Shown here: positions 9,285 to 26,638 of the stretch, in pieces | Layout of the letters: each line of letters opens with the position of its first letter | Numbering within the stretch: the first letter of the stretch is position 1 | The notes under the pieces: model-generated | Database searches by the model: none | The model's input: only the letters and a program-made list of their open reading frames with translations | Told to the model about the DNA's origin: nothing | Translations under genes and position numbers: made by a program | Assembly (NCBI GenBank): GCA_000010565.1 | Contig: AP009389.1 | Coordinates: 1,550,001 to 1,614,000 of the forward strand | Direction: 5' to 3' | Source: Pelotomaculum thermopropionicum SI | Lineage (GTDB): Bacteria; Bacillota; Desulfotomaculia; Desulfotomaculales; Pelotomaculaceae | Length of the DNA: 64,000 bases

Positions 9285-9342
9285 TGTCCTGCCCCCCTTT
9301 AAAAAACGGCTTTCCGGCGCCACCGGTGCCGGACCTTTCCCA

Positions 9343-23568: not shown

Positions 23569-24348
23569 TTATGCTGGAAAGTTCTTCTCAAGCCATTTAA
23601 ACATTATTTCCCACACGTCTTTGTGCCGGCCGGTAAACTGGTGATCGGCCCCTTCAATTATTCTAATTTCTTTCGGTTCACCCGCGGCATTAAATATGGC
23701 CTGTGCATTTTCAACCGGAACAACCACATCATTGCTTCCATTTATAATTAACAACGGCCGCGGGGAAATCATGGAAGCACTGACCGGTACGTTATAAGAC
23801 CGCAGGTCGGCAAAAAAGCCTTCCTTTAAAAAAACCGTCCCGCCTTCCCCCGTCAAAGGAACCAGACCTTCTTCTGATTTTAGGGTGTTATTCCGGAAAC
23901 TGTCAAAAAGTTTCGCTGGAAAAGCCGGGGCCGCCCATGTGCAAACTCCCCCCACCCTTCTGTCCAGCCCACCGTGGCATATAGCCGCAGTGCCGCCGAA
24001 GCTTCGGCCGACGGTTATCACTCGCCTGAAGCCCAGGCTGAGGCAGAAATCAACCGAGCTTTTAATATCTCCCACATGCCCGGTAAGGCTGACGCCGGTA
24101 AAGTCGCCCTCACTTTCTCCACAGCCACTGAAGTCAAAAAGCAAGGAGGCATAGCCCAATTTTCCCAGTTTCTCCGCCATGTCCACGGCCCTGCCCCCGC
24201 CCTCCTTGCTGCCCGTAAAGCCATGGCAGACTATTACCACGGTGCCGGCACCAGGAACAGAGCAAAGGAGTCCGGCCAGCTTTAAACCCCTTTCGTTACT
24301 GTAATTAACCTTTTCCCATTTTAAAGAATTTCCTGCCAAACCCTGCAC
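23569..24348 (-). CDS. Alpha/beta hydrolase
   Basis: 259 aa. VIVCHGFTGSKEGGG (oxyanion-hole region), nucleophile elbow VGRSFGGTA (GxSxG), late Asp in INGSNDVVVPVENA and His in IEGADHQFTG complete the catalytic triad. Resembles cytosolic peptidase/esterase-type hydrolases. It precedes the thioesterase gene, so both may act on acyl compounds. Confidence 0.82.
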   Translation of the reverse strand: MQGLAGNSLKWEKVNYSNERGLKLAGLLCSVPGAGTVVIVCHGFTGSKEGGGRAVDMAEKLGKLGYASLLFDFSGCGESEGDFTGVSLTGHVGDIKSSVDFCLSLGFRRVITVGRSFGGTAAICHGGLDRRVGGVCTWAAPAFPAKLFDSFRNNTLKSEEGLVPLTGEGGTVFLKEGFFADLRSYNVPVSASMISPRPLLIINGSNDVVVPVENAQAIFNAAGEPKEIRIIEGADHQFTGRHKDVWEIMFKWLEKNFPA

Positions 24349-24457
24349 CTCCCGCTTGCTTTAATAATGATTTTAAAACTTTAAGCAGCTTTTTAAAAGA
24401 TTATAAAAGACATTTCAATTATAAAATTCTTGGCATCCAAAATATTTTTATAAGAAG

Positions 24458-24487
24458 TTGACATCCCTGGACAATGGCCTTTACAAT
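24458..24487 (+). promoter_or_regulatory. Promoter of the nitroreductase/radical SAM genes
   Basis: TTGACA (24458-24463), 18-nt spacer, TACAAT (24482-24487), 36 nt before the ATG at 24524. Confidence 0.6.
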
Positions 24488-24523
24488 GGTACAAAAAATA
24501 TTCCGGAAAACGGGGTGACATAA

Positions 24524-25147
24524 ATGGAAATCAGGGAAGCGGTCAGACAAAGGCGGAGCATACGGAAGTACAAGGATACGGAAATTCCCGAACAAGTTCT
24601 AAAAGAGGTACTGGAAGACGCACTGTGGGCGCCGTCAGGAGTCAACAGGCAAAACTGGTTTATTTATGCCGTGAGAGGCGAAAAAAAGGACGAGCTCTTA
24701 AAGGCTGTTGCCGGCTCCGGGAAATATTTAAAGCCGCGGCTTGAAACGCTGTATAAAAAAGAAGTGGTCAACCTGACCATGAGCTTTTTTACAAACCTCG
24801 GCGGGGCGCCGGTTATACTGCTCGTCTACATACCAAAAAACATTGTTGAAATACACCCGGCCATGAGCAACCGGGAAAGGTACCTCGCGGAACATGAACG
24901 CTTTGTAAATCTTTTAAGCGCGTCCGCCCTGATCCAAAATATCCTCTTGCTGGCCAAGTCCAGAGGGCTGGGAACCTGCTGGATGACCGCCCCCAAGTAC
25001 AATGAGGACCAGATCAACGAAATAATGGGAATAACCGATAAAGAGCTGGTTGCCGTAATCCCCATCGGGTACCCTGACCAGAATCCCCCGGCGCCTCCCA
25101 GAAAAGGCGAAAAAATACGCTTCATAGGATTTAACCAGCCCGTCTGA
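24524..25147 (+). CDS. Nitroreductase family FMN oxidoreductase
   Basis: 207 aa. VRQRRSIRKYKDTEIPEQVL and ALWAPSGVNRQNWFIYAV are the family's FMN-binding N-terminal motifs; LASARGLGTCW-type block appears as LAKSRGLGTCWMTAP; C-terminal IPIGYPDQNPPAPPRKG. Reduces nitro compounds, quinones or other acceptors with NAD(P)H; natural substrate unknown. It precedes the radical SAM gene by 39 nt. Confidence 0.85.
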   Translation: MEIREAVRQRRSIRKYKDTEIPEQVLKEVLEDALWAPSGVNRQNWFIYAVRGEKKDELLKAVAGSGKYLKPRLETLYKKEVVNLTMSFFTNLGGAPVILLVYIPKNIVEIHPAMSNRERYLAEHERFVNLLSASALIQNILLLAKSRGLGTCWMTAPKYNEDQINEIMGITDKELVAVIPIGYPDQNPPAPPRKGEKIRFIGFNQPV

Positions 25148-25186
25148 AAATACCGGACGGAAAGTTCAAGATAAAGGGTGTTCAAA

Positions 25187-26638
25187 ATGACGCTTTACTT
25201 TGAAACCGGCCCAATCAGGCCCCCCAGCGAGGCAAACAGCCTTTTGCTCAGGCTTACCCGCAACTGCACCTGGAACAGGTGCGACTTCTGCCCGACGTAC
25301 AAAGGCGAAAAGTTTTCCTGGCGCAGCGTGGAGGAAATTAAGAAAGATATCGACGCGGTAACCGAAGCATGCCGCCTGGTGCGCGAAATTTCCTGGGAGA
25401 GGGGCTGCGGCGGGGCCGTCAACCGGGAAGTGCTGGCTTATATTTACGAAGTCCACGGCTTCCAGCTTTTCCACGTGGCCTCCTGGCTGTATCACGGCGG
25501 CAGAACCGTGTTTTTTCAGGATGCCAACTCGCTGGCACTGAAGCCAGGCAACCAGCCTTTTGCTCAGGCTTACCCGCAACTGCACCTGGAACAGGTGCGA
25601 CTTCTGCCCGACGTACAAAGGCGAAAAGTTTCCTGGCGCAGCGTGGAGGAAATTAAGAAAGATATCGACGCGGTAACCGAAGCATGCCGCCTGGTGCGCG
25701 AAATTTCCTGGGAGAGGGGCTGCGGCGGGGCCGTCAACCGGGAAGTGCTGGCTTATATTTACGAAGTCCACGGCTTCCAGCTTTTCCACGTGGCCTCCTG
25801 GCTGTATCACGGCGGCAGAACCGTGTTTTTTCAGGATGCCAACTCGCTGGCAATGAAGACCGCCGACCTGCTTGAAGTACTTAAATATCTTAAAGAGTGC
25901 CTGCCCTCGGTGGAAAGGGTGACCAGTTATGCCCGTTCTGACACGCTCCTGCGCAAAAGCGTGGACGAGTTGGCCGAACTGGGCAGGGCAGGCCTTTCCC
26001 GGATTCATGTGGGAATGGAATCGGGCTGCGACGAAGTGCTTGAATTCGTAAATAAAGGCGTTACCGCCAGACAGCATGTAGACGCAGGCAGAATGGTAAA
26101 GGAGGCCGGCATATCGCTGACAGAGTACGTTTTACTGGGTTTAGGCGGGCGAAGATGGTCCAGGAAGCATTACCTTGACACGGCCGCCGTATTGAATGCC
26201 GTTAATCCGGATTTTATTCGCCTGCGCACCCTGGCCGTGGTGGAAGGCACCCCGCTCTTTCAGAAAGTTCTCAACGGCCAGTTTGAAGAGCAGTCCGAAG
26301 AAGACCTGATTGCGGGTGAAAGGCTGATGATAGAGCACCTGAACGGCATTCAAAGCAGCCTTATCAGCGACCACTCCACAAATTTGCTGGAGGAAATCAA
26401 CGGCAGGCTGCCTGAAGCCAAACCGTCCATGCTGGCCGTAATAGACCGGTTTTTGGCCCTGCCGGAAAGGGAAAAGAAAAACTATATCCTTGGCAAGCGG
26501 TGGGGAATGTACCGCAGGCTGGATGACATGCTTGACCCAGCACGGCACGCCCGGGTTGAGGAAGCCCTCGATCGCCTGGAAAATGAAGGACAGCTATGGA
26601 GTGCCGTTTCTTACCTGAAGCGACAGCTTATTGTATAA
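25187..26638 (+). CDS. Radical SAM protein interrupted by an internal tandem duplication
   Basis: About 483 aa from ATG 25187 (AAAGGGTG upstream). Radical SAM cluster motif NCTWNRCDFC (C27, C32, C35) close to the N-terminus, then the TIM-barrel segments ending in the YVLLGLGG and RLRTLAVVEGTPLF region. Residues about 16-120 are repeated immediately after themselves. The first 28 or so residues of the second copy are read in another frame, so the cluster motif is not repeated, and one lost T restores the frame. Without the duplication the protein would be about 378 aa, the usual size. The insertion lies inside the barrel core, so activity is doubtful. Function of the family is unknown to me. 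Confidence 0.8.
   Translation: MTLYFETGPIRPPSEANSLLLRLTRNCTWNRCDFCPTYKGEKFSWRSVEEIKKDIDAVTEACRLVREISWERGCGGAVNREVLAYIYEVHGFQLFHVASWLYHGGRTVFFQDANSLALKPGNQPFAQAYPQLHLEQVRLLPDVQRRKVSWRSVEEIKKDIDAVTEACRLVREISWERGCGGAVNREVLAYIYEVHGFQLFHVASWLYHGGRTVFFQDANSLAMKTADLLEVLKYLKECLPSVERVTSYARSDTLLRKSVDELAELGRAGLSRIHVGMESGCDEVLEFVNKGVTARQHVDAGRMVKEAGISLTEYVLLGLGGRRWSRKHYLDTAAVLNAVNPDFIRLRTLAVVEGTPLFQKVLNGQFEEQSEEDLIAGERLMIEHLNGIQSSLISDHSTNLLEEINGRLPEAKPSMLAVIDRFLALPEREKKNYILGKRWGMYRRLDDMLDPARHARVEEALDRLENEGQLWSAVSYLKRQLIV
25230..25545 (+). repeat. Direct tandem repeat, copy 1 (316 bp)
   Basis: First copy inside the radical SAM gene, starting near GGCAAACAGCC. Offset to copy 2 is 316 bases before the T-run at about 25313 and 315 after it. 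Confidence 0.92.
25546..25860 (+). repeat. Direct tandem repeat, copy 2 (315 bp)
   Basis: Differs from copy 1 at only three places that I can find by eye: A/C in GGCAACCAGCC, one T fewer in the run GTTTCC, and C/A near the end (CAATG against CACTG). Junction has short homology (AGGCAA), consistent with slippage or microhomology. Confidence 0.92.

Follow-up and report, generated by a model that had tools for sequence, protein, structure and literature searches.

A tandem repeat within a radical SAM gene of Pelotomaculum thermopropionicum SI: false duplication or recent event?

Spontaneous short tandem duplication inside bacterial genes is a known type of event. The radical SAM gene described here lies in a 64-kb window (the whole stretch of DNA that was analysed, 64,000 nucleotides) of the Pelotomaculum thermopropionicum SI genome, which is one contig of 3,025,375 bases. 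It resembles such events in its head-to-tail unit, its near-identical copies and the ease with which it collapses to a normal gene, but differs from them in having a mosaic of both flanks at the seam in place of a clean or short-homology join. An error of a similar class to the one considered below, the false duplication left when overlapping contig ends are not merged, is described for vertebrate genomes by Kelley and Salzberg (2010, PMC2864568). For the present locus, false duplication from two overlapping contig ends was the best explanation, with a chance a little better than even. Among the literature matches listed there was nothing on this radical SAM locus.

The repeat and its seam

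Tandem Repeats Finder reported a sole array in the window, at 25226-25858 (period 315, 2.0 copies, 98% matches), and the two copies were compared in register. The features are as follows.

25178..26638, + strand: radical SAM ORF of 486 aa with internal tandem duplication; GTG start, ATG at 25187
25226..25541, + strand: copy 1 (316-bp unit), which follows the family frame and bears the cluster motif
25265..25291, + strand: cluster motif C-x4-C-x2-C (C30, C35, C38) of copy 1, invariant in 26 aligned sequences
25312..25318, + strand: GTTTTCC in copy 1
25538..25552, + strand: seam between the copies, with substitutions at 25538, 25545 and 25552
25542..25858, + strand: copy 2, one T shorter, its first 28 codons off the family frame; outer edge imprecise by a few bases
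25547..25630, + strand: residues 124-151 (28 aa), off the family frame, with the motif of copy 2 destroyed
25628..25633, + strand: GTTTCC in copy 2, where the lost T puts the ORF back in frame

The copies are identical over 25237-25315 at an offset of 316 (79 bp) and over 25316-25537 at an offset of 315 (222 bp), and a near-identical repeat of about 300 bp is far beyond chance. In total they differ by one T and three substitutions, the latter all inside 15 bp at the seam. The first-pass annotation had described the repeat, the missing T and the small number of differences exactly, and the recent date that it proposed holds if the duplication is real. The loss of the T gives a net insert of 315 bp; with four Ts in copy 2 the ORF would end after 159 aa. 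The self-correcting frame that had been suggested was thus confirmed, 28 residues being miscoded and the second motif gone, so that the cluster motif is found in copy 1 only. The repeat is also present at 1575226-1575860 in the whole-genome record, which is the same assembly and hence not an independent confirmation.

The seam was analysed by comparing each of its positions p with p-316 in the left flank and p+315 in the right flank. From 25525 to 25574 each seam base matches one or both flanks. A single switch from right flank to left flank, placed before 25542, leaves three exceptions, each of which is the other flank's base, a pattern resembling two superimposed sequence ends. Among simulated seams with random substitutions, all three matched the other flank in 138 of 36190, and in 843 of 11045 when all the substitutions were to C, as here; the strength of the flank-match argument therefore varies with the null that is used. 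The chance of three substitutions falling within 15 bp is 7.5e-5 over 332 positions, for a span that was picked post hoc. The flanks agree at just 8 of 20 positions, and 12% of random places do equally well. The edges of the unit have a longest common word of 5 bp (GGCAA), which is out of register. A templated insert at the seam was considered and rejected, the 24-base seam sequence matching nowhere else in the genome within 3 mismatches. Overlaid poor contig ends would yield the mixture at the seam directly; a cellular origin would need either error-prone joining or a heteroduplex formed by flanks with only those 8 of 20 positions in common.

Relatives and predicted fold

A search with the C-terminal 264 aa covered 80 genomes including that of P. 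thermopropionicum itself, all of which gave matches, many of them distant paralogues. ORFs were taken from 54 loci (52 distinct proteins), comprising the best 29 from other genomes (L003-L031) and 25 further loci (L032-L056) from a scan of genome contigs. All 54 are single-copy with exactly one C-x4-C-x2-C motif, in agreement with the norm of about 378 aa stated by the first-pass annotation, and the two-copy form was absent from every one of them. No internal repeat was found in the family, the strongest self-match over 40 aa in these loci being 30%, and repeat-domain expansion was rejected on this basis. The genomes searched included no other strain of the species that could be recognised. 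Paired-end RNA-seq reads of the species are public (GSE103596, cited in PMC6046458). The closest relative with a name to emerge was Pelotomaculum sp. UBA3102 (L032), with 75% identity; over the C-terminal 264 aa, which contain no stop, identity to the nearest relative is 75%.

From the RPPSE motif to the C-terminus there are 367 aa in 17 of 23 loci (L003-L025) and 473 aa here, the excess being the 105 residues of the insert and one extra residue. Both flanks of the unit are family-like in the alignment (RPPSEA on the left, DANSLxMKT on the right), and so it is the seam between the copies that is the derived part. When the repeat is collapsed, an intact 381-aa ORF results at 226 of 301 exchange points.

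The 486-aa ORF matched PF04055 (E 2.9e-14; 54 bits against a cut-off of 29.5), as expected for the radical SAM superfamily (Elp3 / MiaB / MgmA-like fold). Profile matches to solved Elp3 structures had a best E of 5.2e-17, and Foldseek matched the single-copy relative with MgmA (9ccb), Elp3 and MiaB. The usual radical SAM cluster motif is C-x3-C-x2-C, variants being accepted, whereas the spacing here, as at all 54 loci, is C-x4-C-x2-C. No NCBIfam model attained its cut-off.

An AlphaFold2 model of the 486-aa protein, made with 26 aligned sequences, had a mean pLDDT of 86.8 and a pTM of 0.80; for the single-copy relative L032 the values were 94.9 and 0.91. In the longer model strand 1 comes from copy 1, residues 110-152 have pLDDT below 50, and strand 2 as modelled is supplied by copy 2. 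The insert falls in the linker that follows helix 1 and precedes strand 2, a segment that is short in L049 and L054-L056. Both models match PDB radical SAM structures, the 486-aa model more weakly (best E 2.3e-7, against 3.3e-8 for L032). The earlier suggestion that the repeat disrupts the barrel is supported in part. The model has a confident C-terminal barrel with the extra segment in this linker, but its layout follows the supplied alignment, and so it is weak evidence either way and shows only that a fold of the long protein is conceivable.

The gene neighbourhood was rejected as a clue to function, L012 alone of the 54 loci carrying any of seven neighbour genes within the short flanks that were searched, which extended about 1.5 kb for L003-L031 and at most 4 kb for L032-L056. 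L012 shares the nitroreductase and hydrolase genes of 23569-25147 in the window, which are near the radical SAM gene.

Repeats elsewhere in the genome

A census of repeats with at least 60 matched bases at a distance of 60-2000 bp was made in 81 stretches of the same genome (1,664,000 of 3,025,375 bp, 55%) and in 60 control stretches from six relatives of the same order (1,200,000 bp, of which 5,300 are N). The kinds below were assigned by eye, and some of the repeats, own and control, by period alone.

Own genome: repeat-domain genes (L075, L106, L194, L076)
Own genome: CRISPR-like arrays, by period (L071, L092, L201)
Own genome: chemoreceptor-like pair (L190); partial repeats (L113, L193)
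Own genome: less than 0.4 of the distance repeated (L073, L101, L114)
Controls: CRISPR-like, by period (L132, L148); domain repeat (L173); 42-bp multiples (L172); distant (L150)
Control: L160, 155 bp apart, 106 bp repeated, without an ORF of 100 aa

The repeat at L076:1600-2444 has a 42-bp unit in about 20 copies with a 97% match. At L086:18430-19281 (genome about 1143430-1144281) there is a 426-bp in-frame duplication of a C-terminal domain with a weak CBM_4_9-like match; it has seven internal differences and one beside the seam, and looks older. Two near-identical helicase-like C-terminal fragments (named by eye) lie 314 bp apart at L081:12233-12798, with 62 bp between them and four differences; they are not a clean tandem and are perhaps gene remnants.

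The own-genome census contained one further fresh two-copy duplication in a gene without natural repeats (L091), and no comparable lesion was recognised in the 1,200,000 bp of the six control genomes. If the window is set aside, having been selected on account of its repeat, the counts are 1 in 1.6 Mb for the own genome and 0 in 1.2 Mb for the controls, and the difference is not significant. The second lesion is a 172-bp tandem duplication at L091:16959-17304 (genome about 1891959-1892304) in the gene for NFACT/RqcH (PF05833, PF05670). Its copies are identical bar two adjacent bases beside the seam, one of the two being the other flank's base; the seam is at about 1892124-1892132 of the genome. 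The duplication shifts the frame and the gene is split into two ORFs. The gene was found in 26 of 30 relatives searched, in all 26 with an open frame (577-679 aa), and removal of the 172 bp would leave 599 codons by arithmetic.

The two lesions have in common a unit shorter than the read length, wrong seam bases and a damaged conserved gene, and the interior of both is undiverged, save for the one T in the radical SAM repeat. As the RqcH lesion is off frame, the frame is kept in one case of two, which is near the one in three expected without selection. Frame keeping as a general rule was rejected on this account, and the selection for frame proposed by the first-pass annotation lost its footing, the only other such lesion found being one that breaks the frame.

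An excess of frameshifts was also looked for. Best hits below both 38% identity and 120 bits were dropped, as were those with less than 60% query coverage and extra hits within the same 300-bp bin. Control ORFs against stretches of the own genome gave three candidates among 236 accepted loci, and the reverse comparison none among 245. Read by eye, the three were a spurious ORF in rRNA, a transposase and a glycosyltransferase, and consequently the test does not discriminate. The glycosyltransferase-like gene (by eye) at L088:8390-9521 has a plain one-base frameshift near 9326. A Ku gene is present in L078 (genome 1281816-1282361; PF02735, E 1.0e-52), and Ku-type end joining may therefore take place in this organism.

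Origin of the duplication

The seam pattern, the single-copy relatives and the RqcH lesion together make an assembly error the likeliest origin of the repeat, and the concern over such an error in the first-pass annotation was well placed. Two contigs with an overlap of about 316 bp, due for merging, would instead have been abutted, overlapping by no more than 15-20 terminal bases of poor quality, which would double the unit and leave a mixture of both flanks as the seam. The missing T, 76 bp into the second copy, would be a base-calling error near a contig start. In reality there would be a single-copy radical SAM gene of the ordinary kind, with about 378-381 codons. The repeat, its seam pattern, the single-copy relatives and the RqcH lesion are observed, whereas we infer the contig ends and how good their bases were, as well as the single copy in the true sequence; the second copy is most likely absent from the living genome. 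The copies are adjacent and near-identical, merging them gives the sequence of the relatives, and the differences gather at the supposed contig ends (the three seam substitutions, and the T 76 bp in). On balance, false duplication covers the observations jointly and leaves the in-frame length as a one-in-three coincidence.

What the RqcH lesion adds to the case for an artefact lies in its likeness to the radical SAM lesion. Several points count against an artefact. One Sanger read is about as long as the array (633 bp), so that a false join should have been revealed by a spanning read. The insert is in frame overall, and the presence of the Ku gene means that error-prone end joining is available. 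At the RqcH seam one of the two substitutions, and not both, is the other flank's base, the census without the window lacks a significant difference, and the frameshift comparison did not discriminate.

The main rival, a real and very recent duplication with or without selection, is a serious one, although its chance falls somewhat short of even. If selection is invoked, a 316-bp duplication would have arisen by illegitimate joining (replication slippage or Ku-type) with errors at the join, and the one-base loss in copy 2 would have been retained because it put the C-terminal barrel back in frame; with 105 extra residues in the linker that joins helix 1 to strand 2 in the model, the enzyme may still be functional. 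This account, doubtful as a whole, draws on the exact recovery of the frame ten codons ahead of the stop that would otherwise follow, on the lost T being the sole difference between the copies outside the seam, on the variable length of the linker in which the insert sits, on a predicted C-terminal barrel with pLDDT mostly above 90 and on the presence of Ku. It has to contend with the off-frame sister lesion in RqcH, which reduces frame keeping to one in two, and with the normal ORF that most exchange points restore, since loss of one copy should be favoured instead; the seam mosaic would also need an extra cause, given how few positions the flanks share. Without selection, the gene would be turning into a pseudogene or be dispensable, and the in-frame length would be due to chance. 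This would fit the presence in conserved genes of two such lesions, of which only one is in frame, but the remaining ORF is open and conserved over its C-terminal 264 aa and the seam mosaic is left unexplained, and we regard it as unlikely.

An expansion/contraction switch, in which two copies would mean off or altered and one copy on, had been offered as another reading by the first-pass annotation. Of 301 positions of exchange between the copies, 226 would indeed give the 381-aa ORF and the other 75 a 60-aa fragment. Contraction looks one-way, however: the longest word common to both unit edges is 5 bp, which leaves nothing to drive re-expansion, and none of the 54 loci has the two-copy form. 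A reversible switch is thus extremely improbable.

Were both duplications real, the strain would be prone to small tandem duplications whose seams are mosaic and full of errors, perhaps through Ku-type end joining; in the radical SAM gene a frameshifting duplication would have been caught within a few generations and corrected by a second one-base event, and the resulting enzyme would bear a 105-residue insert in the linker from helix 1 to strand 2. This combination as a whole seems rather improbable. If it holds, the locus is a snapshot of duplication and frame repair, and it hints that DNA ends may be joined in an unusual way. If instead the duplications are false, at least two conserved genes (radical SAM and RqcH/NFACT) are misrepresented in a reference genome, and claims of gene loss or odd protein length built on them would be wrong; the seam mosaic would then be a simple mark for checking other finished genomes.

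The preferred reading, false duplication, may finally be set beside the 'duplicated overlapping contigs' of Kelley and Salzberg (2010, PMC2864568). As there, adjacent near-identical copies have unique sequence on both sides and merging them gives back the expected gene. There the cause was divergent haplotypes in diploid vertebrates and the test was by mate pairs; here, in contrast, the genome is bacterial and the supposed cause is poor contig ends.
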